A DNA stretch of 64,000 bases from Sipunculus nudus. Its lineage: Eukaryota; Annelida; Sipuncula; Golfingiida; Sipunculidae. This document shows, piece after piece, positions 3,410-42,531 of this stretch; position 1 is the stretch's first letter, and each line of letters starts with the position of its first letter. The position numbers were made by a program, and so were the translations under genes. The notes beneath the pieces were generated by a model. The model made no database searches. It had not been told where the DNA came from and worked only from the letters and a program-made list of their open reading frames with translations. Location: NCBI GenBank assembly GCA_026874595.1, contig CM049307.1, positions 30,915,079 through 30,979,078 on the forward strand, written 5' to 3'.

Positions 3410-4374
3410 TCATATATAACAGCTGTGCGCCGTGACCCATGGGTCCCTTGTTTATTAAAATTGGGGTCATGACCTTTCCTATGAGAGTGGCTTTGACCTT
3501 GAATATTGCCATATTTGGTGAAATTCGCACAAAATCATTAATATCTCAGTAAGGGATTTATGGAATGATCCAAAAATCAAATTGACCGAAGATCTTGGAT
3601 AGCTTTGTATTTTGCAGAAGACAGGTGGCGCCACCTTGTATCGTTTTCTTGTTAAAATGATGTTAACACAATAACTTTGTAAGAATTTGAGGTACAGTCA
3701 CCAAACCCACTGGTTTAATGCATCTTATCAATGCTTGGTCAAGTTTGAACATGGATGACCTTGATACATTTTTTCAAGGTCACAGCAGCGATTATGCTAA
3801 AATGATATTAGGGCAATAACTCGAAAAGAATTTGTGGTACAGTCACCAAACCTACAGTTGAGATGCATCTTATCAAAGGCTAAGCCAAGTTCGAATATGG
3901 ATGGCCTTGATGCATTTTTCAAGGTCACAGAGGCGATAACGCTGAAATGATGTCAACTTTAATATCTCTCTGAGGGATACATGGATTGGTTAAAAAATCT
4001 GATTGACATAAGATCTTTGATAGCATTGTTTTCTGCAGAAGACAGGTGGCGCCGCCTTATGTTGTTTCCTTGCTAAAATGATCTTTAAACGGAATAACTT
4101 TGTAAGAATTTGAGGTACAGTCACCAAACCCACAAGTTTGATGCGTTTTATCAACGGCTATGTCAAATTTGAACATTGATGACCTTGATACGTTTTTTCA
4201 AGGTCACAGCAGCGATAATGTTAAAATAAAATTACGGCAATAACTAAAGAAAATTGTTGGTAGGCCTACAGTCACCAAACTTACAGGTTAGATGCATCTT
4301 ACCAAGGGCTGGGGGGGGGGGGGGGTTAATTGTCTCGGGATACTATGGCACCTGCGGTGCCAAGAAATATCTAG
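3410..4374 (+). mobile_element. Non-autonomous Helitron-like element, 3' end CTAG
   Basis: The right end has the classic Helitron 3' layout: a GC hairpin (GGCAC-CTGC-GGTGCC, 4348-4362), a short spacer, then CTAG followed by T (4371-4375). The interior has two tandem blocks of roughly 415 bases (about 3540-3955 and 3956-4370). Each carries AATATCTC, GATCTT-GATAGC, a GGTGGCGCC palindromic core (3626 and 4045), CACCAAACC-AC and copies of TTCAAGGTCACAG. A G-run sits at 4309-4325. The left boundary is approximate; TGACCCATGGGTCCCTTGTT at 3436 may itself be the 3' end of a different relative. Confidence 0.6.
4309..4325 (+). repeat. Poly-G run
   Basis: A homopolymer of about 17 G inside the Helitron-like element. 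Its length is not reliable in any assembly. Confidence 0.8.
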
Positions 4375-4539
4375 TTGGGCTATGCATTTGAATCAAACAT
4401 TTTTATCTGTATGATCAATTCAGTAGTGTAGCAATTTCCTGTTGATATGGGGGTCAGTGGGTCAATATAATAAATTCTGCACCTTTTGTTTGACAGGTGT
4501 TTTTTTTTTTTTCAGAGTGCATATCATAATCGTATAGCA

Positions 4540-4830
4540 TCAGGAGCTTCCGCTTTATATCGAGTGAAAAGCTGACGAAATCTTTCATGGAACCTAAAAT
4601 GAGGTCTCTGTGACTACCCCGAGTTACAGGGTTAAGAGTTTGGGGTACCTTTCAAGGGGGTCATGGTCATAGGTCAGTTACTTGCAGTTTGGTTTCAGGT
4701 GTTTGTTCAAGGCCGAAATCATAACTTTATTATACCGCAACAGCTTCATATGAGGAACGCTACTGGTGGGATCTTCCAGGAGACCTGAAATGAGGTCACG
4801 GGGCTGTGTCAAGGCGCGAAAACACGGACT
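4540..4830. repeat. Degenerate two-unit dispersed repeat
   Basis: Two similar blocks contain ACCTAAAATGAGGTCTC (about 4591) and ACCTGAAATGAGGTCAC (about 4782), each preceded by a GC-richer stretch. The same phrase, AACCTGTAATTAGGTCTC, occurs in the element at 33.6 kb. This looks like an internal fragment of that repeat superfamily. No ends are visible. Confidence 0.4.
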
Positions 4831-5874
4831 TCGATGACCGCTCTTTCTTTTTAAAAATCCTACAAAAGGCAAGATTTACCACGAATCGCTGGCTGGAGAT
4901 CAGTGTGCTTCTTCATCCTGCAGAACTTCAGCTGCTTCATGAGACTAGTGAACTATATTCTCTCACTTATAAAATTAAGATAGCTTCCTCACATTCGGCA
5001 TGTAGCTCTTGTCCTTTTTAATGATTTACTTACACGGCTCCCAGTGATTCAGACATGATAAACCCGTGAATTTGATTACTTTCATACTGTAAAGGCCCGG
5101 TTCCCTCTTCCTACATATAATCAGGTCCTGCTGATATTACCAGTGTCACTCTTTTTTCTTTTTTTTTTCTCTCGCATAAGTTCTCAGGTGAAGTTCGGTT
5201 ACATTGTCACAGTTTGTGCTCACTAGCTTAGCGCCTTTGCCCAGGGGCCGCATGCTTTACACTTGTGGTATATAACCACAGAAAACCTTTGCATAACTAT
5301 AACAATGGTTATAGTGTGTTCAGTTAGTCCTGAACAAGTCACAGGGTAGGCACGTTCTTGTGCACCTTGGTTTAATTGCGTACTCTGAGTAAAGGTTAAT
5401 AATGTGGGGCCAAGGATGTTTTGTCTGAACAACGGCTGGTGAATCAGGCAGATAATCTTCATACGATAAATTATGGGGGTGCATGGTACAGACTGTTTAC
5501 GATATACACTGAGTTACACAATTCTTTTCACGCCAAGTTTTGCAAAACCGTTGTCTTTTTCCTTGTGATCTTGATCATTTTTTAATACAGTATTAAACTT
5601 CACTGTGTTAGTAGCTGATTATACTTGAAAGGAAGTATCAGCATTCATGTAGTGATGGCGAGTCTGTTCAAACTCTGAAATAAAATAATTTTGCGCTTTT
5701 CTGACAATAGTCGTGATGAAGGTAAACGTTTCTTAGCAATGACAGTTCTGTTCAGGTTGTTCTGAACTGGGCATGACAGGGTCCTCCGGTTGTTAGTGTC
5801 GGTGATGTAGGACGGGTTGCGCCACTCCCATTCTCCTTCGGCGATTCAGCTCGGGTTTGTGAGTGCGTTTTTTT

Positions 5875-5905
<31 letters not shown>

Positions 5906-6195
5906 GAGTATTGTTTATACTTCGAAATTATAGCACTCTGGACCAAACAAGCATTTTGTATTTTGAGCAAACTTTATCATACCATTTCTTTTAAAATGTT
6001 AGCAGCAACTGTAATCCATTACGATTGATCCATTTTGGGTAAAATCTATTTAGCGGATCTTATTACTCGTGATGAATATACACATGAGCATAATATTCGA
6101 TGATAGAAATTTGTCACATACGGGAATACAGTTCAGAAATTTAATATTTTGCTGTGAACGATAAATATATTTTATGATTATCCACAGATATCTCT
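4831..6195. other. Intergenic, includes a long T-run/G-run
   Basis: No gene is recognised. A T run followed directly by about 22 G lies at 5870-5906 and is likely slippage-prone. Frames here are short and unlike any known protein. Confidence 0.55.
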
Positions 6196-6520
6196 CCGCA
6201 TATCACCAAACCTGACTAATACCCGGCTAAATCATTCCGTAATAAATTTTACACCCTAGAAATTGCGCCATGATTGCTTGCCCTTTAATCCTGAAATCTT
6301 GCACTGAAACTTAAATATAACCCAGCTGTGGCTGAAGGACACACTTGCAGTTTGATGTACACACAGAACACTGATCCGAGACGCTTTATCAGTTGTACAA
6401 GGCATGTGGCGCCACCTACAAATACTCCTGTTCATACATTTTCTTAAATATATACTTATCCCTGTTTGAACACAAGAAATATTTATATATTTCTCAAATT
6501 GAATCATCCACAACTAAACA
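6196..6520. repeat. Solitary fragment carrying the GTGGCGCCAC core
   Basis: A GTGGCGCCACCTACAAAT string at 6406-6423 is preceded by an ACGCTTTATCAGTTGTACAA stretch that parallels the arrangement in the Helitron-like copies (short AT-rich lead, then core). Boundaries are not visible. It may be a decayed monomer of the repeats described at 6.97 and 40.55 kb. Confidence 0.35.
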
Positions 6521-6969
6521 CCTGTCACAACACACTGCTGTAAATGTACAGGACTCCGACTGTATACAGTAAAACTCTGTACTGTAGGCTTGAAAATTTC
6601 CATCCAAACTCATTTTCTTTCAGGTCCCTCTCTATAATCTTTACTCTCTATGGAATTAATATACCGATCCTTGATTGGTTGACTGTCGTGAAAATTGCGT
6701 ATTTTTATCTCGAATTTATTCTTTTCTTTGACTATCACGGTCCCAGGGGTTCATATACATACATCTTTCACATTTTGTAGAGGTTTAAAACTGTGGCAGC
6801 TGTATGAAAACTCGAGCCTGTAACGATGGCTTCGTATTGAATAATACAAAAGAATAGCTGCCTTTTGAAATTATAGACCTGTAACGCCAGTAACACCATC
6901 TTTATATACAACATTTACCTTATTAATGAAGATTGATGGAAGATCTCTGTTTATCGGGTACCCTCTCTG

Positions 6970-7873
6970 AATAATTGTATCCGCCAAAACGAAGTTTTGC
7001 GGATACTATGTTTTTGACCGGGTTCCGCCGCCGCCGCGTTCGTTTCCGGAGAACTCCTCTGAGACTACTGGACGGATTTTTCCGAAACTTACTCAAATTA
7101 TCGGGTCACATGTGAATTGTTGCCTAACCAAGTGACCTTGACCTCTGACCTTTCCTCTCTGCCCAGCGTCCGTTTGTGCGTCTGTTTCCACACATAAACC
7201 AACATATCTCGGGAACCGTTTGACCGATCAGGAAATTTTTTTACACAAATGTAGCCCTTGGATAGCTTTATAACATACACAAAAAGGTGGCGCCACCTGC
7301 AACCATGTTTGCACAGTGTCTATCTGTTCGTCTGCCTTGGGTTAAAGTCATTCATATCTCTGCAGTGGTTTGACTAATTCACCTGAAATTCGGCATGCTT
7401 ATACATCCTGGTTAGCTTTCCTGATTTTATGACAGGTGGCACCACCTACATTCACGTTCACGCTGCAGACATCCATGCTAATATCTACGGACTGGTTTGA
7501 CGTATCTTCCTGAAACTTTGCATGTGTTAAGATCTCACATAGCTATTTATCATACAAGAAACTGGAGGTGCCACCAGCATCCATTTTTGCACAGTGTCCA
7601 TCTGTTTGTCTGCTTAGGGATAAAATCACTAATATCTCGGCAGTGGTTTGACTTATTCACCTGAAATTTTGCATGTGTATATATCTTGGATAGTGTCTCG
7701 TTCAATTTACAGGTGGCGCCACCTACAATAATGTTTACGTGGCAGACATCCATGCTAATATGTAACACATCTAACTCTATTTCCCCTTGCCACTCAATCC
7801 ATGCCTCACTTCACCCGTCCTACTCTGATTTTGGCGGATACACGTAGTCGCTTGTCGACTACCCGTATTCTAG
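6970..7873 (+). mobile_element. Helitron-like element, short copy (same family as 40.5-42.5 kb)
   Basis: The 5' side begins AATAATTGTATCCGCC and folds on itself: GTATCCGCCAAAAC (6978) pairs with GTTTTGCGGATAC (6995-7007). The 3' side reads GGCGGATACAC, then a hairpin GTAGTCG-CTTGT-CGACTAC, then CCGTATT and the terminal CTAG (7870-7873) followed by TT. Identity with the second copy stops right after CTAGTT, so the 3' end is well fixed. The interior has about four monomers with AGGTGGCGCCACCT or variants (7276, 7436, 7566, 7711). No Rep/helicase frame is present, so it is non-autonomous. It sits directly at the left edge of a 170-bp repeat array. Confidence 0.72.
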
Positions 7874-9180
7874 TTTATAACATGTTAGAATGTCCATGCA
7901 TTTGGTGTCACATCTTGGGTCGAGAAATGCATATTCCATACTATGCGCCAAGGTCATATTTGGAAGAAAAAAAGCAATCGCCATTGAAAGTATTTTTAAA
8001 GAGGCCCAATCACCTATCTGTCCTTTAAATTAAACTAAAGATAATCCCTTGGAGCTTTAGGCAAGAAAACGCGGATATCACCGCACACAGGCTACTTGTA
8101 TTGTTTATATCAACGTGTTTATAATATTTGGGGGCCGCCAAAATGAAACAAAATCAACAAGGGCATCTGACAGCAAGTCATATAAGCCAGAGCTTTCCAA
8201 ATGCCGTTTTGCAACAAGTGACCTTTCTATCTCAGCATATATGCAACCTACCACCTAAGGTTACATGTTTTTCCCGTTTGTCAACATTGCTGTGTTAACA
8301 TATATGTTGTTGAAAAACGAGTTCATACAGAGTACAGACTTCACGAAAGCATTATAAGAACTTTTCACAACCAAAATTACACAGAGGAAGCCAGAAATCA
8401 AAAATTCTTTTTCAAAAAGTAGGTAAATTGGCTTCTTTAATTGAAGCGGTAAAGAAACATATTTTAAACTTAATTTCTGACTTCAGCTTGTTCATTCATT
8501 TTGTGATACTTTGAGATAATAAAAAAGTACCTATCGAACAATATAGTTAAGGTTAATGCCAAACTTGGAAGAGAAATAGCAGCAATCGCCATGATATAGC
8601 ATGTTTCACAAGAAAGTCACACAGAAACACATTCAATGGGCCTTTTTCATCTACATTTAGAATGTACATATATTTGGTGATAGTTTTGAAGCTGGGAAAG
8701 GTCCATATCATACATAAAGGTTAAGTTTTTTTTGGAAAACAGCAAAACTACCAATGATATGGCAAGTTTTTGCAATAAAGTGACACATATAAAATATTCA
8801 AAGGGTCATTTCCATCTAATTTTTTAATGGTCTTTCATTTGGTGACAGTTCTGAGTCGAGAAAAGGTTCATATCTTGCATTGAGGTCAAGGGCATTATTT
8901 TTTTTCAAAGAAAACCGTCAAACCATCCATATATATAATGGCATTATTTGCAAGAAAGTGACCTAGAAAAACATTAAGGGTATCACTTCCATCTGACAGT
9001 ATTATTTTCACTCATTAGGTGATACCTTTTACGTCATAATTGAAACATATCATGCATAAAGTTCAAGGTCAATATCAAATTTTGTAGGAAAAAATAGGCC
9101 AAACTCGCTATGATATGATACATTTTGGGAAAGTATAACACCAATGCCATGTGTGTAGGTCTATTTACCTGTCACTTTGA
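7874..9180 (+). repeat. Array of ~170-bp tandem repeats, forward orientation
   Basis: Units are recognised by GATATxGCATxTTTxxCAAxAAAGTGAC-like phrases at about 8593, 8756, 8936 and 9112 (163-180 bases apart). Each is followed by TTTCATCTxAxTTT and ATTTGGTGATAGTTxTGA, and then AAAGGTxCATATCxTGCATxAAGGTCAAG. A partial unit abuts the Helitron-like end at 7873. Part of 8000-8500 is more diverged. The reverse-oriented counterpart lies at 11.6-12.4 kb. No coding potential is seen. Confidence 0.6.
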
Positions 9181-10453
9181 CCATTTTAATTTGCCCAATC
9201 ATCGAAAACGGTAAAAAAATCACATGCGCATGTTTTAATACGTTTTAAGAATATATTAATATGAATCTTACCATATAGATGCATAGTGTAGTGTATGTTC
9301 TACTAAACAGGTTGGGGACCTTCAGCATCAACTTCTTCATGCGTATCCCTACTCCAGTGTTACATTCATGCAAGCAATTTCTTACCACTGGCTACATACT
9401 GGTACGTGTAACAGCAGTCCATTATTACGACAGGTTAACGGCAATGGAAGGTGATTTCAACCCCACACCCCAGGGGGATGCTGGGGAGTGCTTGGACCTG
9501 ATGAGGATATCAAGGCGAATTGATATTTGTCAGAATAAGCCGCTGATAAAGACACCGGGGACCCATCTGAATTTGTACCCCGATACATTTTTGAATGGGT
9601 TAAAAATTAGCGTCATTAATACCAGTAGCACATTCTGAAAGGTATCAGTGATATGCTTTGCAGAAGAGATGGTCTGAGTCGATATTTCTGGTAAGCACGT
9701 AGAAGGAGATGCAGGCTACCTAATCTGTACGAAAGCGTATACATATACTTATAACCTATATTTCTGCTACTGAAATGCAGACGTGTTGTTGCAGAGGTTG
9801 CTGATGCATATATATTACATACACAGACCCTATCCTGATACCACAGGTAATACAATGTAGTTTTAACCTGTTCATGGTAACATCAAACCAACAATTTTTA
9901 TAGTAACATGGAAGAGTATAGTTAGATTTTGACCTCAGGAAATGACGATTGTGTCTGCCTTTTTAGGTTAGGTATAGATGCGATACCACCCGAAGGCCAC
10001 GTGGCATTGACAAAGTTCATTCTCCCGGAGTCATAGCATATATCATCAGGCCTAAGCATCTCCCTTTTAGCTTAGATGAGTGGTTTGAAACCATCCTCCC
10101 TGCTCATCAGAATTACACAACCAGCATCAACTAACAACTCGACAGGTAATTTATTGTATTGTATGTTTATTTTATCACATATACCCCTGTAATTGCCCTC
10201 AATTATTTTGACACGTTTAGTATTGATGGAAGTGGAAGTACATAATCTGGAGAAGTGAACACTCTGAGCTGAAACTTTGCAACTCGAGCTGATGTGCGGT
10301 TTGGTGATGCGTTTCCTTACATCTCAAGTAGAGCTTGCTCGATCTACATGCTTCTCATTCTAATATACCTGGGTGATTTGGAGACATGAAATTAGCAGCT
10401 GTTTTTTTTTCTGTGTGATGCATATATATACTGTGAGTCACTGATGTAGTATC
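9181..10453. other. Intergenic, nothing recognised
   Basis: The longest open frame (9279-9638) matches no family I know and has no flanking signals. This is the central part of the stretch bounded by the two inverted ~170-bp arrays. Confidence 0.5.
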
Positions 10454-10658
10454 CAGACGCTGAACCGGGGGGGGGGGGGTCCAGGGGGTCCGGACCCCCC
10501 CCCCTTTTCATCAGAAACAACGTTTTTTAAGGGCTTCAGACAAAATTTTGCGGCCTGGACCCCCCTTTTCCAGACCTGGTGACCTTTTTTAGGGTTTTCA
10601 TTAGTCCTCCTGGGTTGGACCCCCCCCCCCCCTTTCCTAAATCCTGGATCCGCCCCTG
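10454..10658 (-). mobile_element. CAG...CTG element copy 1 (hAT5-like MITE)
   Basis: The right end reads AATCCTGGATCCGCCCCTG, the reverse complement of the CAGGGGCGGATCCAGGATT start seen at 19000. The left end starts CAGACGCTGAACC. GTATC directly flanks both ends (10449-10453 and 10659-10663), a 5-bp target duplication. The interior has poly-G/C runs and is about 205 bases, with no frame of its own. Confidence 0.65.
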
Positions 10659-10663
10659 GTATC

Positions 10664-11595
10664 GCAACCACTTACTTCCAATGACACAGAGTAGACCTTT
10701 TGTGGAAGCTTCTTCAGTGTAGCTATACAATTTGACTGTTTTGCTATTACAGTGAAGAGGTTAAAACTATTACCTGTGATGTTAGCATGGTGTGTGTAAC
10801 TTAAATAGATCAGAATAATCGGCAACAACAGCTTTTGGAACTTTAGCCAAAAGTTAAGCCGTCCCATATCTCGGCATTTCTTTCGGCATACTCAGCAGAA
10901 ATATCTGCTTTGACCATCTCTTCGTCAAAGGATCTCACGCAACCTATCAGAATCAACCATTGATAAAGACGCTAGGGTTTAACCTTGTCATGTATGCTTC
11001 AGGGGAACGGTTTCCAACTTCCCTGGGTCCTTTGCCTTTTGTTTGTGTACACAACAAGCAACACGTGAACATTTAAAAATAATTAGATGCAATTGTAGGG
11101 GTTATTTGATAAAATAAACGTACCTGTCTAAAGATATTTTGATGTGTTCACCAGTATGTTACCAGTGACAGTAATTTGCTTCTTTGCATTGAACACAAAC
11201 TAAGAGGAGGGATGAGGATAAGTGATTATGATGGTGAGCATGATGATGAAGAAGAAGATGATGATGTTTTAAATGATGAACAGGTTCACAGCTTCATGGG
11301 ATGTAGATGGACTTTACAATACGGTAAATTCTTGAAATTACGACAACCAAATGAAGCTTTTTAAGGTGGTAGACTTAAAGAGGTCCTATATAATAAGCAA
11401 AATAAAATCGGAACCATGAACAAGGGGTCGTTATTTTGAGGTGGTCACTAAAACGGTTTGGTTGTTAGGCGAGGTTTAGCTGTATAAGGAATGATAGATT
11501 CATATCAAATTCTTAATCAAATGTATTGTTACAAGCACATGTTAAGTTTATTTTCATTGACTGGTTATAATTCAAAGTTGCAGTGACATATCTTT
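10664..11595. other. Intergenic, nothing recognised
   Basis: No gene is supported. A GAT/GAA-rich patch at about 11215-11280 reads as an aspartate/glutamate run but has no start, splice or domain support. Confidence 0.5.
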
Positions 11596-12425
11596 ATATC
11601 ATTGGTGTCATTCCCCCCCCCCCCCCCCCAATACATACCATATCATAGCGAGTGTGGCATTTTCCTGTCAAATTTGGCATTGGCCTGGACCTTGATCATG
11701 GTATGTATCTTTCCTGATCCCAGGAGTGCCACCAAATCAATGGTCATTGTAATGTTAGCTAGAAAAGACACCTTAAATGACACTTTGTTGCAAAAACATG
11801 CCATATACTGGACAGTACTAGTGTTTTTTTCACAATTTAACTTGATCTCAATGCATGATATGAACCGTTCCTGGTCTAAGAATTATCATCAATGGAATGC
11901 GCAATCTATTTTTATATGGAAATGACCCTTTGAATTTGTTTCTATGTCAAGTTCTTGCAAAAGCATGCCATATCATGGCGATTATTGTTTTCTTTGTTTG
12001 ACCTTGACCTTGATGCATGGTATGTACCTTTCCTGGCCATAGAAATACAACTTTTTTAATGCATGAGCATTACCAAGTTAATTGGAAATGACATCTAAAA
12101 TGCATTTCTATGTTATTTTTTTGCTCAATCATATCATCTCATGGCAATTGTTGCTTTTTCCTTTCCAGGTTTGACATTGACCTTAACCTTACAACATAAT
12201 ATGTACCTTTTATTACCTCAAATGAATTCATAACCTAATGTCAAATGGAAATAAGTTTGGCTTATTTTTTTCTGCCAAAATGACCTCAATCTTAATGCAT
12301 GGTATGTACTTTTTAAAACCTCAGAAGTGTCGCCAAATGAACGGCCATCCTAATATTAGTTGAAATGACAACTGAAATGTGTTCCTATGTCACTTAGTAT
12401 GGAATTATGGCCATTTAAATATTTC
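11596..12425 (-). repeat. Array of ~170-bp tandem repeats, reverse orientation
   Basis: Units show CATGCCATATxxTGGxxxTTxTTGTTTTxxC, then TTGACCTTGACCTTGATGCATGGTATG, TACCTTTCCTGG and CCAAATxAATGGxCAT (key phrases near 11791, 11957 and 12126). This is the reverse complement of the phrases in the 7.87-9.18 kb array. A C run lies at 11613-11629. The two arrays form a large, imperfect inverted pair around 9.2-11.6 kb. Confidence 0.6.
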
Positions 12426-12799
12426 ACCCCTTATAATGGATTTGAGGTGAAAAAGACACTTGCAAAGGGTGGAATCGGGTGGGGTTTTATTTGTGCACAA
12501 AGACACCACAAACGAATCTTTTTCAGGTGATAAACCTTTGATAACTTTTTGTCCAACCTCTAAAAAGATCGTTTTTTGCATAGACTGCTTGGCATGATGA
12601 CTCGGATCGTAAAATTGTTTAAAGAGGCTTAACCTTGAGGGCGGCTTAACTCTGAACAGGGCACACGTCGTAACCGTAAGGTACATCCTTATGTTCAAAC
12701 TTCACATGCTGAAAGTATTGGTTGGTCGTCTGTAGAAACCAAAAACTAGGTCACTTTAACCTATATGTTCCTAGTTTTGGCGCGAAAACTTATTTCATA

Positions 12800-13830
12800 G
12801 TATAAATGTTCCGTTTTCTCTGAATGGCTGGTTGGGTTGTCATGAAATTTGGAGACTATAATATCATGGGATACATAACCGCTGTAGAAGACTGGTTGCG
12901 CCATCAGCCTAAAAAAATACAGATTACAGTCATTTGTCTAAACTTCAGCAGGACACAAATTTTAAACACAAAGCTTAGGTTTTCAGACTTTACATGCTGG
13001 CAGGCCTGATAAGATCACTGTGATAAAACAAAATTATCGAGTCATTATTACATATATTCTCCGAGTTACAGAACGGAAATCCACGTTCAAGCCTGTCATA
13101 AACTTCTGTTAGTAAATATAAACTTTATTTATTTTACATGGATTGTACAACAAGTTATAATAACTAATACGAGGCACGCTCCATGGCATGGATAATGGAC
13201 TCGGTAGTCGGTAAGGGTGGAGGAAACCAGAGGACCCGGAGAAAACCACCGACCTTGGACGGGCCACTATAACCCACTCTCATAGCTACATCGGGAATCG
13301 AACCCGGGTCGCCAGCGGAGAAGGCCGAGCGTTTTACCGCTCAGCTGTCCAGTTCCCACTCAGCTGTCAAGGTCCAGTAAAAAGTCATCTGAACTTCTGT
13401 ATGACACAAATATTTACTGTAAGGCCTAGGAATTAATGCTGATAAATCCAAATTGGCCCTCTGTGGATTTCCATAATTAATTTACTGTGATATTCATTCT
13501 CCGAGTTAAGGAACAATACACGTCTTCGCACACATCAGAAACTCGCTTCCGAATTTGGAAAATTCATTTCAGAAGTCCGTTAAAAATGTCATATATATGC
13601 AGAAGATTAGATTTCTCAAGAACAGGTAATTGGATTTTCCTGACAGTCGGATTACTGATCTTGTAGAACTCTAACGGCTGCGGAAGACTGGTGGCACCAC
13701 CTACAAATTTTCTATTTTTGTGTGTATTTTTGAGGTTGACAGATTGCAGCCATATCTGTGTGTAATCAACAGGACACAATTTCAAACGTGACCAGCTCAC
13801 AAGTCCTGACAGATCCTCAAAGGAATTTGG
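12800..13830. repeat. Two-unit repeat family interrupted by a SINE
   Basis: Matching landmarks occur twice: GCTGTAGAAGACTGGTTGCGCCATCAGC (12881) versus GGCTGCGGAAGACTGGTGGCACCACC (13677), CAGGACACAAATTTTAAAC (12949) versus CAGGACACAATTTCAAACG (13771), and ATTCTCCGAGTTACAGAAC (13056) versus ATTCTCCGAGTTAAGGAAC (13496). The SINE at 13108-13360 splits one unit. The GGTGGCACCACC core is a variant of the palindrome found in the Helitron-like elements. No coding sequence is present. Confidence 0.5.
13108..13360 (-). mobile_element. tRNA-derived SINE
   Basis: Read on the minus strand, the head has RNA polymerase III promoter boxes of a tRNA: an A box with CAGCTGAGCGGTAAAACG (about 13333-13350) and a B box GGGTTCGATTCCC (13293-13305). 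A conserved body follows, including GGTTTTCTCCGGGTCCTC and GGTTTCCTCCACC, a phrase seen in many invertebrate tRNA-SINEs. The tail is AT-rich and ends near AAATAAATAAAG. The head no longer folds as a full functional tRNA that I can verify, so this is a retroposon and not a tRNA gene. It interrupts a two-unit repeat. Confidence 0.8.
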
Positions 13831-13858
13831 GAAAAAAGTACAGTGTCACCTTTTTTCA

Positions 13859-14079
13859 CAGGGGCGGATCCAGGATTTAGGAATTGGATTGGTCCAACCC
13901 AGGAAGACTATTAATGATAAAAACTAAAAAATGAGCCCCAAGTCCGGAAAAGTTGGGGGGGGGGGGCGGCAAAAACTGATCTGAAACCCGTAAAATGGTG
14001 GCGGCGGCTGAAAAAAGTTGGTGCGGGGGGAAAGGGGGCCCAGACCCCCTGGACCCTTTCTTTTCTGAAGCTGCTTCTG
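13859..14079 (+). mobile_element. CAG...CTG element copy 2 (hAT5-like MITE)
   Basis: It starts CAGGGGCGGATCCAGGATTT and ends GAAGCTGCTTCTG. The interior G-runs and the phrases GTCCAACCCAGGA and CCCCTGGACCC match copies 1 and 3. Flanks are TTTCA and CATCA, so the 5-bp duplication is imperfect here. About 221 bases, no frame of its own. Confidence 0.62.
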
Positions 14080-14223
14080 CATCAGTTACAGAGTCTCAGT
14101 ATGAAAAACACGTTTAAGCAAATCTAAACTTTAGACTTGTTATATCAGGGTCGTCAATATAGGGGGGATGTGGGGTATATCCCCCCGCCCACACTGTTTA
14201 GCAAGAGGGGATTATTACATTAA

Positions 14224-14262
14224 TCACCCCCCCCCCCCACACACACACACACACACGCACAC
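14224..14262 (+). repeat. Poly-C then CA dinucleotide run
   Basis: A C-run passes into CA repeats, interrupted once by a CG. It is a slippage tract in AT-rich DNA. Confidence 0.85.
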
Positions 14263-14517: not shown

Positions 14518-14518
<1 letters not shown>

Positions 14519-14578: not shown

Positions 14579-14582
<4 letters not shown>

Positions 14583-23559: not shown

Positions 23560-23850
23560 AAAAAGGTATTGTTCTCAGGCACTTTTTTTTCAGAAATCAG
23601 ATCAGGCCTGCAATATTCTAATATTACTTGTTTTTCCCTTTTTTGCATGTTTCCATAAAATAGTCATATGATCAGGAAAAAGCATGAAAATAACAGATCT
23701 TTTTTTGCTAAACAGGTAAAAGCACTACATAACAAACAAAATTTTATCAGAATTGTATTATTTTATCTTCTTGAAAGATTTAAATCAATATTAAATATTT
23801 TTTATGCAGGGGGTTAAAATTGACGCGGTGGCTGCCTAAGCACTGTACCC
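23560..23850 (+). mobile_element. MITE with TTCTCAGGCAC ends, copy 1
   Basis: It starts GGTATTGTTCTCAGGCACTTTTTTTC and ends near GCTGCCTAAGCACTGTACC, an imperfect inverted repeat. It shares with the copy at 49.2 kb the phrases TTTTTTTCAGAAATCAG, AGGTAAAAGCACTACATAACAAA, TTTATCTTCTTGAAAGAT and TTTTTTATGCAGGGGGTT. About 290 bases, no coding. It lies in the intron between the putative first exon and the signal-peptide exon. Confidence 0.65.
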
Positions 23851-25022
23851 TTAATTTTTTTTGCCTTACTTGGTTTTATTTTGAATTACAGACAAAAGAC
23901 ATCAACTTAGCACAGTTTGCATTATGTACATTTATGAGTTTTTACTGTAAAATATGTTATATCAGTTTAAAGCTTGGGAAACCCCATAATCATTGTCACT
24001 AAAATATACCAAGCATCATTATAAATACTATGAAATGCTACAAAATCTAGGTATAACTAATGAAGTACAAAATACATGCAATGTACAACACTATGTATGA
24101 TACACAATAAATAAAAGACCCCATCACAGTAAGGACATCCCAGCTCTATCTATCACATCTCTCCCCATCTCCCTACACACAACACAACACATGCTGCCCC
24201 ATGTTCAGACTTCATATTCAAATGAAAAAAAAGGATTTTAGCAATTAAAAAGACCATTTGTTTAGAGAACCAGTAACATTCTACTCCATCTGACCCAGTA
24301 GTTGCTCACAAAAAAAAAAATCCCATTTATTGTTTTCTTACCCTTCATACCTATGTTACCCACTCAGTCAATGGACTCTCTTTAATCACTGGAGAGTATT
24401 AAACATTTAATCCAGACACACTTGTGTTGATTAAGGATTCCATATGAACAATAATGTGATCTTGAAGTCATCTTTTCAACATGAAAGGTTTCTAGCCTGG
24501 TGTTGGCATTATGGAAACAAATGCATTTAATGAATGAAACATTCTGAATGTAAGAGAATTACAAAATACTTTATTGGTTAAAAATTATGGGGTTTCACTT
24601 CATGAAGTAATTTAATGCTAAGATTTCACAAAAATTATGCCTGCAAAAGGCATATTATTTCTGACTGATTATAGCTAACTGTCAGAGTTCAGGTAAAATT
24701 GTCAACCTTCAGTTAGACTAGATGTTCAGTTAATTAAGTGAATACTTTTGTTTATCATAAATCAGAGTATATAAATGATTCATCGTTAAATTTTTATGAA
24801 GTGTCATTGTAAAATAATTATCATCTAATTATCAGTTGTACGATGTGTTTCAAGTAAGACATCCATCCATTAAAAATAATTTTTTTATTTTAAATTTGTG
24901 CTGATTGATAATCCCAGAAATCTCTTAATTTACAAACCCTGTGAAAAAATCTACATATTCATAAATCAACGAATATTATGATTTGATTTGCATCATATTC
25001 ACATTTGTGTGACTGGTTGCAG

Positions 25023-31470: not shown

Positions 31471-33621
31471 AACATCTTGACATATATACAAACTATGTAT
31501 TAACACTGACATTAATTCTTAAATTGTGTGATTTAGGAAACAAAAATTTCACTAAAAACATATGAGTATGATAACTCCTGCTTCATGGAGTGGCATGATT
31601 TACTTTCAGGTTTGTACCAGTTGGACATTATGCTTGCAATATAATATAAAATATGTTAGGAGTGTTTCTAGGCAACAAAAGGTCACCTGTGATGGTTTTA
31701 AGCAGGGATTAATTTCATGGGTCTGTTACTAGGCTGAAGGAACACTCAGCCAAGCACTGAACTGAATTAGCGCTTGATATATGATGGTGGGTTAATGGAA
31801 CCAACGCAAAATGGCTGTCCACACACAACATGGTATGAAGTAGAACTGCTTAGTTCTAACACAGATGTGATCGGAATATTAGGATTTTTTGTCGGGAAGA
31901 CTTCACCTTAGGAGTGAATTTTTTTAGAGAAGCTTTGTGACTTTTCAGTGACTGCTGGACTAATTTTCTACCATTAGCATCTTTAACTGACTTTTGCAGA
32001 AAAGTAACACAAACTTAATGAGAGGATGCCTAGGCTGGATGGTGTGGGACCCAGCAGCTGATTAATAAAGTTAAGGGTGAACAGGTTTTTAACAGAAATC
32101 TCTGATCCTGATCAGTAACAATGTATTAATGTATTTTTTTTTTCATTTATGTTGTACCTTTACTGGTGATCAACTTGAAAATCCAAGTTGTGTTCTGAAT
32201 TATATTTAGCTTAGAATCATGCACTGTACTAGATCAGTGATAAAATGTCTGAGCCTGACAGTAAAGGGTTTATTCTTTATATATGTTCATACTTGTGTCA
32301 TTTGTGTGCAGTATAGCCAAGTATGAGCTATATAAAACCTTTTGCCAAAGTAAAAGGGATTAATGGTATGCTTGACACATCCAGGCTCCAGCGCAAACAG
32401 GTTTTATGTACATGGTGATTATGTAAATGTTTTGGTCCTGATGTACAGTTTCTTAATTCAACAAACACAGGGTATCTGACACATCTGCATGAGCTTCACA
32501 TCCAAGCCTTCCAGAACCAAACAGGTATTACTTTGTCATACTTTAAATGATTTTGGTCCTGACATGCAGCTTATTAATTGAACACCAGCTGGGTCTATGA
32601 CATAAAAGAGTTTGGCACAACCAGGGTTTGACTGTTCTTGAAAAATATAGACACCGAGAGACTGGTCATCTTTTTATTATCCTTTGGTGATAGGGCCAGT
32701 GTTTAACCTGGACTGTCTGCCGTCTGTTGAAGGTTTTCATTTTGTTTACATATAACATTGTGTAATCTGTGTTATTTTCTTTTGCTGCATGTAGGGCATT
32801 TTTAAAAGTTTAATTTATCAGTTAAAGTACTGCATTGGCAGTCACATTCATTACATTTTGGTTTACTTTCACATTTACATCAAATGTATGTTCATGGAAT
32901 GAGAAATCCTGTGATCACATAATATTGTGAGTGTGTAGATGTTAATACAGAACTTTGCTATATTAGGTGTCTTTAATTTTTTTTGTACTAAATATTTTCA
33001 TCTTTGGTACTAATTATGTTCATCCTTGTGATTTACTTCCTTTTGATGTCTTGCTATTTCATATATAGATCAGGCTTCAGAACAAACATAAGGATGGAAT
33101 TAATCAAATATCTGTATCAAAATCTATTAAAATGTTTCAATATGTCTCATAAGTCCTGTTTAGTCTGGTCAGCAATTACAGGCATCATGTGTTTATGTGC
33201 CATGAAACAGACTCTGAAGTCAGTCATTGCTTTTATTTCAAGCACATTCCAATTAATGACAGTGAGCTCAGCAGACATAGATGTTTCTGCTGTCATTGAA
33301 ACCTGCTGGTCCTCATAAAAAATCAATGGAGGATGCTTGTGGAGAAAGATGTACTCTGTTCACAAAAAATGGGATCATCTGCCTGACATTTGATAATAAT
33401 AGAATAAAATAAATTTAATTCAGCAGTGTTTAACTCAACATCTGTACTTATTATTGTAGACAAACTGAGTGTAGACAAGAGATTGCTATAGGGAGTCATT
33501 GACTGCCACTAGAAATGTCCTTGAATGAAGATAAAGGTCACGGAGAGCACAGCTCCATCACTTTGAGTGCTCTCATGCCACTTGGTACATGATTCCGGTT
33601 TTTGTTAAATCATCTTAGGAC

Positions 33622-34256
33622 TTGTGTCAGATTTTTTAGTTCAGCTGCCTGAAAGTCACCTGAGCTATAGCGATCACTCCTTTTCCTTGGTCCATCTTTC
33701 ATGCCATCCTGCAGTCCGGCTGCAAGGAACAAACAGCTAGACCTAGAAATTTCTAACTGTACATCGAGGGGGGTCAATAAAAAATCTCCTAGGAAACCTG
33801 TAATTAGGTCTCTATGACCCATATCTTTTGAGCTATTGGGCTTGTAAGTACCCCCCCCCCCCCCCCCCCCCCCGGAAAATTTAATACAAAAGCTCCAGTA
33901 TCTGAATTACTAATGCATTGATCGCCACGATTCTTTGCATGCACATTGATCATGGAGTGCATGAGTGTATTTGATTAAGATCCAGAGAGGTTCCTGTAGG
34001 AATGTCTTGGAAATTTGAAATAGTGTCACTGTGACCTATATTTTGTGAACTGTGTGAAAGAACATGATTTTAGCACTCTGTTAGTTAGATGGACACAGGT
34101 GGTAGCAGTTTGGTTTAGAATTAAGTCACTGTAACCTATATCTGAGGTCTGAAGTATTGGCAAAATACATGATTTTGAGCACTCTGGGAGTCATTTTACC
34201 CATTGTTGAAGATTCCTTGAATTCAGCTTAGTGTCATGGCCCATTGGCCACTTGTT
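33622..34256 (+). mobile_element. Non-autonomous Helitron-like element, hairpin-bounded
   Basis: The left hairpin TTCAGCTGCCTGAAAGTCACCTGAGC and the following TATAGCGATCACTCC match the start of the element at 838. The right end has the hairpin TGGCC-CATT-GGCCA followed by CTTGTT (34237-34256). The interior has repeated phrases (TTAGCACTCTGTTAG and TGAGCACTCTGGGAG; CACTGTGACCTATAT and CACTGTAACCTATAT), so it is internally duplicated. A C-run of about 23 bases lies at 33850-33872. No transposase frame. Confidence 0.6.
33850..33872 (+). repeat. Poly-C run
   Basis: A C homopolymer inside the element at 33622. Length is uncertain in any assembly. Confidence 0.85.
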
Positions 34257-37200
34257 TTATTTCCATCATTAAGATCTGTTATATGATCAGCCATGTGCTC
34301 TGTTTCCATAGGCTTTATAGCTGGTTGACAATGACCAAGGTGTGCATTCAGTAAGAATGTACCCATAGTCGAAGTTCATTCTGAGCCATGTTTACAATGT
34401 TTCAGCTCAATAGTTAGATATGTCTTAACTTGTATTCAACAAGTCTTAACTTTTCACGGGTGAAATTAGTATTTTCTGTACATTTGCTCTGGGTCTAACT
34501 TCCCATGTGATAAGAAATTGATGTGATGCAGTTTACAGAACCTAAGTTTGACGACAAGTTTATTTTGTTTAAAATAGCTATATTATTAAATACACATATG
34601 TCATTGGTTATAAAGCATAATTGTTGTCTTTCATGTTTATAAATATGAAAAAGTAGGGGTTATAGACTGATGACTGATGATATCAGTCTTATTTGACTGT
34701 ACACCTTGTATTTAATAGATTTTACGTGGCTTTTCCATCATTTATCTGGTAAATGGAGTTTGCGGTGTGTCATGTCATCACAGGTTATGTACAATTATAC
34801 AGGAGCATCGGATTTCTGCATCCATAATATGTCATTAAATTATAACTGTTTGATCATGATGTGAGTTTAAGGCTGTGATGCTTTAGACTTGTTTTTTTAT
34901 GTACCGTACAGTACAGATTATACTTCTGTGTAACTACTATGCTGGTCACTGTTTCATCTTTATTTAGCGAGAGTCCATGTATTATCTGTGAAGTGTACTA
35001 GCTGTGTGGTCAGATGCAACTGATCATAGTATTAAGTTAGTGTCTGAAATTTTCAGATATTCAGCTTAATTTATGGTCAAGGAAAAGTGACAGAGAAACT
35101 CAAATGCATGTGTGGTGCTGTATGAATACTTTAATGGTCCTTCAACCGGGAAAGGTCATTTACCTGAGGTAACATGTGTGATGGGGGCAGCTGTTGAGAA
35201 AATGCCACTATACCTCTGTGTCAGCAGAATCCACTCATGATGATAAATTGACATAGAAAACAACTTATGTTAGAGAGTATGATGCTGATGTCTACAAAGC
35301 ACCTGATGACTTCTGGATCTTCCTCCTTTTGGGATAGAGCAATCTCCGTCATTTCCAGATGCAAAATACTTGTACATACTGGTAATGGTTATTTAAGAAT
35401 TGGATTATGTACTCTTCAAGTTCAAGAAACATATCTCTTATGTGTAGGCTTCTTCTGTCTTTAAACCTTGAAGCAACCCAGTATAATGATTTATAAACAA
35501 ACTTAACAGAGATTTTAACTTTGAAAGTAATTACCGATGAAGGATGGGGCAGTAACCTTATGGACAAAATGGAAACAGAAGATAATTTCCAAGCTGCTTT
35601 TAATGTAAAACAACTGGAAGTTTGGAACTGTATGTGACCAAAACTATCTATATATACAGCAGTCCCTGCAAGCAGTCGGATACATTCATCACAAAAGACA
35701 AACACAATTATGACAGATACTGATTAAATACAGGTCTATATAAATATTTGCTCTCCATGTTAATATATTTTTTCCTGTATGAAATGGAAGCTGATGAGAT
35801 GGTTGTCCTTGCAGCAACAAACCCGAGGTGGTGCAGACCAGCAGCTGAATGACAATGCTTTTGTAGCATTGTTCCTCAGGGGATTCTGGGTATTTTATCC
35901 ATAAACACAGAACATCACCTCCTTAAAAGCAAAATAAAAAATAACAAAGAAAGGACACACAGGCACAAAGAGAAAAACAATGTATCTGAGATTAATACTT
36001 CTCTCTAAGTGTTAGAAATGGCAGTGATGATTGTTAAAGCTTTGTACTGCTGAATGCTAATTTAAAAAGCATGGGCTTTGAAGCTAGAGAATGCAGGATT
36101 TGTTCTCCCTCCAGCAGACTATGATTATGATGGATGGCACGTCCCTGAAACCCCTGCCACCTGACTGAATAGCAGATCAATCAAGGATGTTCATGTATAT
36201 ATACCAAGGAACGGGCAGGTCTGGTCGCTCTGACACAAATACAACAAGCTCTCTTTATGGCATATTACCATAATTTTACTATTAAAAGTAACTTTTTTCC
36301 TTTGGGAAAATTTTTACCATGGTTAAAATAGAAAAGTCTGATGTGGACATATATTCAATTTGACTTGGAAAGTTCCCAATGCACATGTTCAGTGTAATGT
36401 TTCCTGTTGGACATTTTAAAAAGACTTTAGCTTTCTGTATATTCAGTAACAATTCCATGCTTCTAATATTTTATTTAAGTACTGAAATATCATCTTTTCT
36501 TACATTTCAAGTTATTGTTCATCTACAGTTTGAAAACAATAATTTGAAAATTATCTATCATAGTTTTGCCTTTCTGGACAACAGTATTGTCTTCATCTCT
36601 GTAGATATTGGGGAAAAATATCTATATAAAATCATGTAAACTGTGCAGAATATCTAAATCATTTTAAATTTAAAGAATATGTAGTAGGCATCACTGTTTC
36701 TTTCTTGCTGACACTTATTTCTGTTTTCTCCATTGTCTGTATTCCAAATCATTAAGTTTCTGCAGCTCTTATAAATGTAGCCCTTCTTACATAAATATGA
36801 AGGACTTTAATCTTTAAGGCATCTGGTTCACAATGGACAAACAAAATGTTCAGTATAGACTTTCTTAGACTTCAGTGATAACTGTATTTGAATCAACCAC
36901 TTGTTGGGTATCTTAAATTACTTAATTGGCAGTAAATATGCAGGTAAAATGTAAAAAGACAGCTTGCTTTGTTGGTACCGGTAGGAATATTGCTACAGAT
37001 AGAACAAAGGTATGTAGACTTGACAGGGTTGAAGATGGATGTAGTTACACCTGAATGATGCAGAAGCTATGGGAACAACAGGTATAATTGATGTACAGGT
37101 AACATTCCAGGTGCTGTTAAGACTTATTTGACTTCAAAGCATTTAAGGTCTTCAGAGATGGCTGAGAGAATCGAACACAGGAAGCTGTCTTTGTAGGATA

Positions 37201-40200
37201 AAGGAATACAAGATGCTATGGCAGGATTCAAATTTCTGTTGACATTTTCAAATGGCTTCATGAGGAGTTTTACCTTGACCTTCTTCTTTTTAATCTTAAT
37301 GAATGCTGTATTATGTGTCATTATATATGAGAGTCTGAACAAACATACCGTTATAGTCATTATGGAATAATGGTTATTGAGTATAACGCTTCCTCTTTGA
37401 ATATGGGGAATACCTGTATTGGGTTTAATGTACTCAGTATGCCCATTGAGATACACCTTGAACAAAATATAATTTGAATGGAAGGAATTTCAGCAATACA
37501 GTATTCATATATTTAGAGTTGAACATATCTTGGGACTGTTTTTTTTTTATTTTTTTCATATTTGTGAGCTCATTGAGTTTCATTTTAATTCATTTGAGCA
37601 TCATACTTGGTGGTTATCATGTTGTATATTGTCATGCAATAATGATTTTAATATTCATTTTTAAGCATGCAAGATTTGTAATGAATCAACTGAATATCAA
37701 GTGTATTCCATTAAACAAGTGTCAGATTTGTAAAACTTACATTATGGCATGGTAACAACTGTTTGTTGAATTATTAACATAATTGGTATGAAGTTGATTG
37801 ACATTGCAGAGCAGTTAGTGCATAATTTATAAATCTGTTCATTGTATTCTACTCATTGATATGGCAAATGCAATGCAAATTGCCTACACCACACTAAACC
37901 TAGTTATTTTTATGATTAAAGAAGGGTTTGTATATTTGTGGTTAATTTTTCAGTTTACTAAAAGTGTGTGTGCACAATATGCAACTGGATAATATTTTCT
38001 CAGGTAAATAAATGTTAAAAAGTTAAATGTATTGATTTCACAATCTTTCTTTAGAGATAGTTTTGAAAATCTCATCTATATTTGTTATATTAAATTATTA
38101 AACAGGAAAACTGAGATGATATATTCCACAAAGCTACATATGTGCTCTGCCCAGATAGAATTATTTAAATACACTCAGAGGCAACAAATATCAATACTCT
38201 AAAAACCTTCTGCCAGAGAATGATTCATATTGCTTTACAGAACTTTAAATGGACATGCTTTTGTGGAAATACCAACTTTACTTGACAGATTGAATTATCA
38301 TTTTACAAATTGAATTAAAGTTCTATTTTCTACTGATGTTGGTTTTCCAACAACTGAAAACATGAAACTCTACTTAGATTCAATCACAGCAGTAATGGCT
38401 TTACAGCCATGTAATCTCCTTCTAGGTTCTGTATATAGCATTAGATCTGTTTTAAAGTCACATTTCTTTTAATCATCTTGTCAGTTGGTCACCATGATTG
38501 AGTACTCTAGTTACTTAACCAATTGCTCTAGCTTGTAATCATTATCAATCAGTTTCATCTTATCTTCAATCTTATTGTATGATTGATGTTTTTTCATCTC
38601 ATCTGACTCAGAGCCATTCTGGCTCTCACAGACTCTCAATCTGTTGTCTGGTATATCTGACTGTCCACTGCATATTTTTTTCAAGGAAATAACTAGGACT
38701 GCATTATTATGAAAATTTGAAGATGTTTGCCCAAACCATTTTTCACACTGAAACATTGAACTTCTGACTTGAAATACTTAAATCAAAGCCTACCTCCAGT
38801 CCTTTTAATTCTTAGATTTCTTGTTACTTATGATTGTTTTCTTATTTTGAATTGAAGCCATAAACATGGAAAAATAAATATGCATAATTATCAGTTTTAT
38901 TTTTGTTTACACGGAAAAGTTTAAAGAAAATGTGGCATGTCAATTATGACTTTATGTCAGTATATGGTTAATAGACAATTACATGTCAGAACTTAAATCA
39001 CACATTTCCTCAGAACTTGCTGAAAATATCCTTTTATTTTTTTGTCAAGGATATTCTTTCTCTTTTGTAGTATTTCATGTATTTCCCCCAGAAAATATTG
39101 AGAAAATGGTAATTTTCTCACTTTTGTCGTGTGAAACAATATTCGCATTTGTAGCCTTGTTGCCTGTACTGTGATCGAGCTACAGATGACCAGACCAATG
39201 TTGCTCTAGGTGATGGAGTGTGGCTTACTTCCACGCGTCTGCACACTGATTGGGTCTTGTAGTGACAAATAGCAGCCACTTCCCTAATGAGGGGACTACT
39301 GGGGAAGAGGTTTAACTAAGGCTTAATGAACAATTCTGTCCTGATTAGCTGGGGATGAGCTGGTCAGGCAGGGTGAGACCATCACCAGACATCAATAAAT
39401 GGACACTGTCATCCATCCCATGAGACTGCAGGACCTTGTGTTGGGATGTGCCGTGTCTGATCCCGGATCTGTGACACAGCGGGACTCTTGTTCAACATAT
39501 GATCAGAATATTAATTCCCCCTAGTGGCCCATAAATGTTATCATGCTGAAATCCCAAGGTTGAAGTGACCTATATACTTCTGAAGTGTTATGTTTCGTGA
39601 AGTAAAGTTCATCCAGGTTCAACTATTCAAAAGTTAACTTATTGATAAACCTAGGACAAGTACAGCAACTTTATTATTATGTAAATCTTTCGAATTTCCT
39701 CAACATATTTGACTTCAACCTCTTTCTTATAAACCTTCAGAATTTCAACTGCATTTAGCAGTTTTAAACTTTTTCAAATTCTGCCATGTATATTAGACCA
39801 CAATGACTTTCCTCTAACATAAATCCCTGAGATTTCACCTTGTTTCACAAAGACATTCCAATGGTAGCAGTAGACAGCGTGGTAAATTTTGTGTGGTGTG
39901 AGCAGAGTTATGAATACCTGCAGATCACATCATCTATAGGCAATGATCCTCTGCACTGTATGCCAGTGTGTTGTTTCCTGTATAGTGTGTGTTACATGGT
40001 TTGATAACCAAAACTATATCTGCAACTGTAAACAGGGGTCGTAATAATATAAAGCTTTTTCCGCCTGTCTCAGACAGGCAAAAAGGTGCAAGAAAGGCAT
40101 TTTTCATTTTGTACCAATCTGTTGGAAAGGCCAGCACCCAGATGTTTTCCAGATTAATTGCTGAGTAGTAACAAGTATAGTTGCAAGTAGTAACAAACAT

Positions 40201-40548
40201 GACACAAAAATGAAATAATTCACAGAGGTGTTCCACTGACTCCCAATACTTCCTATATTTTCCTAGTAAAATGATGTATAATTTCTAATACTTTCTGGCA
40301 TCTGGCTTCTCATCTCCTGTTTTTTTCCTGTTTTTTTTTCACCTGCACAATTTTGTTTCTGATATAACAGTGTTACTATTGAAAACATTCATGTTTTTTT
40401 TTTTGCACTAAAGTGTGCATGTAGGTTGGCATGTAAGATGGCAGAATCAGGTTAACACTGAGCGAAGTTTGACTGAAAGTTTTATATGATGTTATAGGAT
40501 GCATCTTTAGTGGAAAGGCAAATTTTTTTGCGGAAAGACAAACATGAA
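34257..40548 (+). other. Long intron, middle part
   Basis: CpG-poor intron. The segment 39175-39500 is less AT-rich, with several homeodomain-type TAAT/ATTA cores in non-repetitive sequence, and could be a conserved regulatory element. A short palindrome GCCTGTCTCAGACAGGC lies at about 40063. No exon is recognised; the 118-residue minus frame at 35349-35705 looks like chance. Confidence 0.5.
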
Positions 40549-42531
40549 CTAGAATACGGGTAGTCGACAAGCGACTACTTGTATCCGCCTAAATCAGAGT
40601 GGAAAGGGTGAAGTGTTGCATATTAGCATGGATGTCTGCAGCCAAATTGTGTATGTAGGTTGCGCTACCTACCAAAAAATCCAGAAAGCCGTCCAAGTTG
40701 TATACATATGCAAAATTTAAGGCAGATAAGTCAAACCACTATATTGTATATGAGTGATTTTTGCCCTTGGCAGACAAACAGATGGACGCTGTGCAAAAAA
40801 GGGTTGCAGGTGGCGCCACCAGTTTAGCGTATGATAAAGAGCTTTGTGAGAACTATACACATGCAAAACTTTGGCCCAATCGGTCAAACGTTTCCCAAGA
40901 TATGAGCTTGGATATCTGCTGCATAAACTAGAATGCAGGTGGCGCCACCTGTCATAAAATCAAGAGAGCTGTCAGGGATGTATAAACTTGCAAAATTTTA
41001 GGCAGATATGTCAAACCACTGCCGAGATATGAGTCATTTTATCCCATGAAAGACAAACTGACGGGAGCTGTGCAAACATGGCTGCAGGTGGCGCCACCAG
41101 TTTTGGGTATGATAAAGAGCTATATGAGATTTATACACATGCAAAATTTTGGCCCAATCGGTCAAACCGTTCCCTAGATAAGAGCTTGGATGTCTGCACG
41201 TAAACTTGATTGTAGGTGGCGCCACCTGTCATAAAATCAGAAAAGCTATCCAGGATGTATAAGCATGCTGAATTTCAGGTGAATTAGTCAAACCACTGCA
41301 GAGATATGAGTGATTTTAACCCAAGGCAGACGAACAGATGGACACTGTGCAAACATGGTTGCAGGTGGCGCCACCATTTTTTGTGTATGTTATAAAGCTC
41401 TCCAAGGGCTACATTTGTGCAAAAAAATTTTCCTGATCGGTCAAAAGGTTCCTGAGATATGAGCTTGGATGTCTGCAGCGTAAACGTGAATGTAGGTGGC
41501 GCCACCTGTCATAAAATCAGAAAAGCTATCCAGGATGTATACGCATGCCAAATTTCAGGTGAATTAGTCAAGTCACTGCAGAGATATGAGTGATTTTAAC
41601 CCAAGGCAAGCAAACAGATGGACACTGTGCAAACATGGTTGCAGGTAGCGCCACCATTTTTGGTGTATGTTATAAAGCTCTCCAAGGGCTACATTTGTGC
41701 AAAAGAATTTTCCTGATCGGTCAAACGGTTCCCGAGATATGAGCTTGTATGTCTGCAGCGTAAACGTGAATGTAGGTGGCGCCACCTGTAATAAAATCAG
41801 AAAAGCTATCCAGGATGTATACGCATGCCAAATTTCAGGTGAATTAGTCAAGTCACTGCAGAGATATGAGTGATTTTAACCCAAGGCAGACGAACAGATG
41901 GACACTGTGCAAACATGGATGCAGGTGGCGCCACCATTTTTTGTGTATATTATAAAGCTCTCCAAGGGCTACATTTGTGCAAAAGAATTTTCCTGATCGG
42001 TCAAACGGTTCCCGAGATATGAGCTTGGATGTCTGCAGCGTAAACGTGAATGTAGGTGGCGCCACCTGTCATAAAATCAGAAAAGCTATCCAGGATGTAT
42101 ACGCATGCGGAATTTCAGGTGAATTAGTCAAGTGACTGCAGAGATATGAGTGATTTTAACCCAAGGCAGACGAACAGATGGACACTGTGCAAACATGGTT
42201 GCAGGTGGCGCCACCATTTTTGGTGTAAGTTATAAAGCTCTCCGAGGGCTACATTTGTGCAAAAAAAATTTTCCTGATCGGTCAAACGGTTCCCGAGATA
42301 TGTGGGTTTATGTGTGGAAACAGACGCACAAACGGACGCAGAGGAAAGGTCAGAGGTCAAAACAAAATCGGGGCGCAGCAGTTCACATGTGACCCGAACA
42401 TAATCCCGGGTTTCGGAAAATTCCGCCCAGCGGTTACAGAGGAGTTCTCCGGACACCTACGCGGCGGCGGCGGCGGCGGCCAGCTGAAAACATAGTATCC
42501 GCAAAACTCTGTTTGGCGGATACAGTTATTA
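40549..42531 (-). mobile_element. Helitron-like element, long copy with 280-bp higher-order repeats
   Basis: This is a second copy, on the minus strand, of the element at 6970-7873. Its 3' end (low coordinate) is CTAG at 40549-40552 preceded by the same hairpin, CGACTAC/GTAGTCG. Its 5' end has GTATCCGCC with a subterminal fold-back (42495-42524). Between them lie about five and a half 280-bp units. Each consists of two diverged monomers of about 131 and 149 bases with AGGTGGCGCCACC at or near the monomer end (starts 40808, 40937, 41086, 41214, 41363, 41494, a variant at 41643, 41774, 41923, 42054, 42203). CpG-rich against a CpG-poor intron, so probably young. It has no Rep/helicase frame and is non-autonomous. 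The open frames read through the units are repeat artefacts. Confidence 0.78.

Follow-up and report, generated by a model that had tools for sequence, protein, structure and literature searches.

In the 64-kb stretch of Sipunculus nudus DNA analysed here (the window), a palindrome of 12-13 bases recurs in several repeats. It lies in tandem arrays inside elements whose ends can be located, HINE-type elements and a second element at 3.4-4.4 kb have a module upstream of it in common, and between their lineages this core is kept better than the sequence around it. Our preferred reading, to which we assign about an even chance (probability roughly 0.5), is that a single old satellite-like module of ~140 bp, now diverged, underlies these repeats, with the palindrome as its best-conserved box; the core would have been kept under constraint as a duplex protein-binding site.

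Copies of the core palindrome

Searching GGTGGCGCCACC with at most two mismatches gave 22 matches in the window against 0.46 expected, the latter being the mean of 100 dinucleotide shuffles, whose maximum was 4 and none of which reached 22. Thirteen copies in the window are perfect. The recurrence claimed in the initial annotation is therefore real, and its positions are recovered exactly or within 10 bases (3626 is found at 3624, 4045 at 4045, 6406 at 6405, 7276 at 7286, 7711 at 7712 and 13689 at 13690). The core was picked for its conserved look, most copies were found by way of the core, and all cores studied are copies inside the window. The following were located by match to GGTGGCGCCACC.

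3624-3635, + strand: perfect core
4045-4056, + strand: core GGTGGCGCCGCC, one mismatch
6405-6416, + strand: solitary core fragment TGTGGCGCCACC, followed by TACAAAT
7286, 7435, 7564 and 7712, + strand: cores in the short HINE-type element
12894-12905, + strand: degenerate core GGTTGCGCCATC of the 12.8-13.8 kb pair, in a unit with local similarity to the second
13690-13701, + strand: core GGTGGCACCACC of the 12.8-13.8 kb pair
40658-42215, − strand: 12 cores of the long HINE-type array

Three of these, at 7435 (GGTGGCACCACC), 7564 (GGAGGTGCCACC) and 12894, were absent from the earlier list. Within the long array, 10 of the 12 cores are perfect. The remaining match, at 5815, has two mismatches and surroundings without a module recognisable by eye; it was regarded as an apparent chance match and left out of later core counts, which refer to 21 cores.

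A family of HINE-type elements

The copies initially annotated as a short and a long Helitron-like copy are one family of HINE-type (non-autonomous Helentron) elements, 55 of their last 60 bases being identical.

6977-7873, + strand: short HINE-type element with a central array of four monomers, both ends located
6977-7006, + strand: 5' subTIR and adjoining inverted repeat, GTATCCGCCAAAA..TTTTGCGGATAC (DNA fold of 6968-7050, z = −2.69)
7829-7862, + strand: 3' subTIR (7829-7841) and 3' hairpin (7844-7862; fold of 7795-7880, z = −2.23)
40549-42523, − strand: long HINE-type element with 12 cores in a 280-bp dimeric array, same family as the short copy

In the arrays, monomers A and B alternate, each of ~140 bp and with one core, and the core-to-core spacing is alternately 148-151 and 128-131 bp. 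TRF reports a period of 280 at 40620-42302 in the long element, with 6.0 copies. The left module of both copies consists of a GTATCCGCCAAA..TTTTGCGGATAC inverted repeat beside the 5' subTIR, followed by a GCC microsatellite, and the right module of the 3' subTIR, a hairpin GTAGTCG..CGACTAC and CTAG followed by TT. The fold score given above for the 3' hairpin of the short copy compares with z = −1.30 in the long copy. The 5' and 3' subTIRs of the short copy agree exactly over 13 bp, those of the long copy over only 9 bp, so that the length of ~11-15 bp described for HINE subTIRs is found in the short copy only; the 5' ends of the two copies have 12 bp in common. Both copies end in CTAG|TT, and HINE insertion is expected in T-rich or TT sites without target duplication. 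The single frame of at least 110 aa overlapping the two elements (42124-42456) is without a Pfam match, and none of the 17 frames in the window that reach 110 aa encodes a Rep/helicase, as would mark an autonomous Helentron partner. SubTIRs, a 3' hairpin, an inverted repeat with microsatellite and central repeats, without Rep/helicase, together make up the anatomy of a HINE. Assignment to canonical Helitrons was rejected: the 3' CTAG fits CTRR and T comes next, but the 5' end, at our putative boundary, begins GTATCC and not TC.

Other repeats carrying the core

Two further features bear on the module.

3538-4374, + strand: 3.4 kb element with core-bearing modules from 3538 and 3959, each opening with AATATCTC
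44465-44560, + strand: candidate relic, with GGTGGCGTTGCCAC at 44467, then a stretch resembling the upstream module (nhmmer, 44501-44552) and no core after it

In the 3.4 kb element the core modules are interleaved with units of ~145 bp, and the 3' end carries a hairpin (4346-4362) and CTAG|TT (4371-4376). A matching 5' subTIR was not found, the best match to the presumed 3' subTIR having 4 mismatches in 11 positions; the element is possibly truncated. It appears to be another Helentron-like element carrying a diverged version of the module. The stretch at 44465-44560 may be a further relic of the module, in which two half-sites are spaced by 3 bases. The solitary fragment at 6405 has a run of 15 bases in common with the consensus of monomer A.

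The repeat pair at 12.8-13.8 kb is split by a tRNA-derived SINE-like insertion (13130-13365, − strand), with a B-box-like GGTTCGATTCC at 13294-13304; ARAGORN calls no tRNA there.

A common module upstream of the core

The core had initially been described as embedded in at least four otherwise divergent families. This overstates their independence, as the short and long copies are one family and the HINE monomers can be aligned with the 3.4 kb element even when the core is excluded. A core-free nhmmer profile, built from the sequence upstream of the core in 16 HINE monomers, matches the 3.4 kb element at 3531-3617 (14.0 bits, E = 0.0017) and the candidate relic at 44501-44552 (15.1 bits, E = 0.00082), against a best match of 5.1 bits in a reversed-window control. 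With this profile the second unit of the 3.4 kb element is not recovered whole (4011-4035, 1.3 bits), and there is no significant match over the 12.8-13.8 kb pair or the fragment at 6405.

Pairwise comparisons of the upstream sequences were made by alignments anchored beside the excluded core, with 300 shuffles each. For the 3.4 kb element, none of the 300 shuffles was as good against A, against B or against the 12.8-13.8 kb pair (copy at 13690). The pair itself was matched by 22/300 shuffles against A and 44/300 against B, and by 51/300 and 213/300, respectively, when aligned locally. The 6405 fragment resembles the 12.8 kb pair (0/300) and the 3.4 kb element (3/300 anchored, 87/300 local), and is weakly similar to A and B (20/300 and 24/300, anchored). 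No resemblance between any two groups is seen downstream of the core, where the lowest value is 61/300 shuffles. An ungapped comparison of flanks had given z > 5 in some pairs only, for example between the 3.4 kb units and two B monomers; small indels hid most of the similarity from it, and it was superseded by the gapped alignments.

The profile and the pairwise tests therefore define a common module that starts at ATATCTC and comprises ~85 bases and the core; the HINE arrays and both modules in the 3.4 kb element start at this sequence too. The lead-in CTTGGATAGCTTT, noticed earlier as common to two of the repeats, is indeed present at 3594 and 7257, 30 and 29 bases before the core. The families are thus not independent, at least not fully, since HINE and the 3.4 kb element have this upstream module in common, and the 12.8-13.8 kb pair is linked to the 3.4 kb element and weakly to HINE.

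Relatives elsewhere were sought by scanning two core-free and two core-bearing patterns in a viral contig collection, with 2, 0, 0 and 2 loci, and one core-free pattern in genome contigs, with 4 loci. The six loci from core-free patterns have no exact core, and the two from core-bearing patterns are without the upstream module by eye. All eight were read as chance, and the scans therefore supply no independent copies.

Conservation of the core relative to its flanks

Between deep lineages conservation is much stronger in the core than in its flanks. Upstream identity among A, B and the 3.4 kb element is 49-54%, and every pair agrees at 12 of 12 core positions. The longest common runs all lie on the core, with 17 bases for A and the 3.4 kb element, 13 for B and the 3.4 kb element and 13 for A and B; outside these runs the three lineages are 43-49% identical, while GGTGGCGCCACCT is unchanged. 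Simulated probabilities of such runs are 0/5000, 0.001 and 0.0056, respectively. In a three-way MAFFT alignment, which included the core and is therefore partly anchored on it, 51 of 144 columns are identical, the core is so at 12/12 and the longest run is GGTGGCGCCACCT. Among 20000 column permutations, a fraction of 0.0001 yielded a fully identical window of 12 columns at any position; the procedure ignores correlation between neighbouring columns. Pairs with the copy at 13690 have no such long run on the core; their longest runs measure 7 bases, outside the core (P = 0.34), 9 bases, at its edge (P = 0.026), and 7 bases (P = 0.14).

Inside the younger array, the evidence for extra conservation of the core is suggestive only. 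In an age-matched check, 3 of the 12 core columns vary in each monomer class, against 67/125 columns elsewhere in A and 66/130 in B (p = 0.07 and 0.13, not significant by columns), and 8/140 and 6/140 windows of twelve columns are as conserved as the core. The earlier claim that the palindrome stayed while its surroundings diverged hence holds between deep lineages and is only suggested inside the array.

The core CpG is the only CpG column common to A, B and both 3.4 kb units, and it is retained in 18 of the 21 cores, in a window whose CpG observed/expected ratio is 0.41. Three of the 11 core changes fall on the CpG, which occupies 2 of the 12 positions; as this is no clear excess, CpG decay was rejected as the main source of core changes.

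These data also bear on a reading by common descent without constraint, in which survival of the core, and not of another box, is a matter of chance, or in which the copies are younger than they appear and the flanks evolved fast by replacement of monomer segments. It is consistent with the weak excess within the array and with the boxes ATATCTC and AGCTTT, which are likewise common to the lineages. Moreover, cut-and-replace of satellite segments is described for oyster Cg170 in the accessible text of PMC5139131. Against this stand the core runs of 13-17 bases, improbable at 43-49% identity, and the retention of the CpG, and we consider such unconstrained descent somewhat unlikely.

Fold-back, E-box and CTCF readings of the core

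The palindrome could instead act as a replication or recombination signal that extrudes or folds single-stranded during rolling-circle transposition and promotes template switching, arrays growing where it is kept. Precedents can be named from the available passages of two papers, in which palindromes and stem-loops are suggested to help Helitron segments become tandem (PMC12628747) and a conserved palindrome is reported near the repeat junction in DTC84 of Donax (PMC5139131). In the window, however, the folding of two core segments as single strands does not surpass that of most shuffles (z = 0.36 and −1.35), and none of the 11 core changes was seen to be compensatory; in the core at 40658, one pair has changed on both sides, to A and A. 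Additionally, the array edges in both HINE copies are found at ATAT, ~80 bases before the first core and ~40 after the last, and not at the core. The fold-back function suggested in the initial annotation is not supported, given the weak folding and the missing compensation, and we judge a replication signal very unlikely. Rfam gave no match and ARAGORN no tRNA.

The same annotation had pointed to the flanking hexamers CAGGTG and CACCTG as E-boxes. Among the 21 copies, the left box is present in 9 and the right in 7, with both in 1 and neither in 6. The flanking CA and TG fall outside the conserved unit, and the E-box reading was dropped on account of these varying letters and counts. E2F sites are of the GGCGC type. 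A wider reading, that the core is a dispersed regulatory site for a named factor, be it CTCF, E-box factors or E2F, draws on the fit of AGGTGGCGCC to the 3' part of the CTCF consensus; in particular, AGGTGGCGC fits the AGRKGGCRS part of the human consensus, CCASYAGRKGGCRS, as given in the accessible text of PMC6746451. The parts available of PMC10658182 and PMC9023564 report CTCF orthologues from molluscs and, at domain boundaries in squid, a CTCF-like motif. The five bases of the CTCF 5' part, however, are near background in the window, with a mean fit of 1.76 (forward) and 1.57 (reverse) out of 5 against a background of 1.53. The best core scores 13/15; across the window that score occurs at 8 sites, and 2 further sites score 14. 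A full CTCF site, CCASYAGRKGGCRS(Y), was rejected as only its 3' part fits, the consensus being the human one. Given also the E-box counts, a site for one of these named factors seems very unlikely.

With the fold-back, E-box and full-CTCF readings failing, recognition of the duplex by a putative protein or chance survival of the core remain.

A proposed role for the core

Under our preferred reading, a constrained site in an old module, the module would run in the order ATATCTC, a TTTGA/AAATTT stretch, CTTGGATAGCTTT, 29-30 bases and the core GGTGGCGCCACCT. It would form the central tandem repeats of the HINE-type non-autonomous rolling-circle element, with diverged versions in the 3.4-4.4 kb Helentron-like element; the 12.8-13.8 kb pair and the 6.4 kb fragment probably hold such versions too. 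We infer a double-stranded, two-fold symmetric site bound by a putative protein of the host or of the element. Binding may help the element or array to persist, for example by opening chromatin or by aiding amplification, and elements losing the site would have left fewer copies. An extension that we regard as distinctly unlikely is that HINEs spread a near-unchanged symmetric putative protein site in arrays of 4-12 copies, thereby seeding clustered sites genome-wide for one host chromatin or transcription factor.

Relation to known elements

The element type is already described in bivalves and insects. HINE anatomy of non-autonomous Helentrons is set out in the accessible parts of PMC4067079 and PMC7492417, and HINE or pearl central satellite repeats with conserved boxes are known from bivalves (excerpts of PMC7492417, PMC5139131 and PMC12628747). 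Compared by description only, the elements of the window resemble Cg_HINE of Crassostrea gigas, for which the available text of PMC7492417 gives a left module with subTIR, adjoining inverted repeat and microsatellite, central satellite-like repeats of ~140-180 bp, a right module of subTIR and palindrome, no coding capacity and T-rich insertion sites. That text reports two motifs common to divergent monomers, whereas a palindromic box in the central repeats of several families goes unmentioned in it.

The pearl family and DTC84 of bivalves, likewise compared by description only, are small modular elements with a few central repeats of ~160 bp, and DTC84 is reported to have a conserved palindrome near the repeat junction (passages of PMC5139131 and PMC7492417); here, in contrast, the core is internal to the monomer and distant from the array edges. 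BIV160/Cg170, as described in part of PMC5139131, similarly comprises old diverged monomers with two conserved boxes, linked to Helitron-type elements; it differs, on description only, from the ~140 bp monomer in a 280-bp dimer found here. DINE-1/HINE elements of Drosophila and mite have subTIRs, an inverted repeat near the 5' subTIR, a 3' stem-loop, a microsatellite and optional central repeats (accessible text of PMC4067079), but within the window no autonomous partner was found.

In a literature string search of mostly non-subscription text, GGTGGCGCCACC occurred only in a chitinase paper and in no such element, AGGTGGCGCC was not found together with CTCF, and the matches listed for five element strings were unrelated by title. 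For the question of why satellite monomers in mobile elements retain short boxes for so long, a 13-bp palindrome outlasting its flanks offers a defined target on which a binding protein can be sought.

Other features of the window

Pieces of a pogo/Tigger-like DDE transposase (Pfam DDE_1 and HTH_Tnp_Tc5) are found at 55730-57582 on the − strand. Tandem arrays at 52607-53864, 54207-54449 and 59483-60880 have periods of 74, 48 and 39 bp, respectively, and are unrelated to the core as far as seen. An imperfect direct repeat, roughly 80% identical and with a spacing of ~665-677 bp, occupies 1069-2106, and two copies of an interspersed repeat, 80-83% identical, lie at 23700-23862 and 49360-49521.
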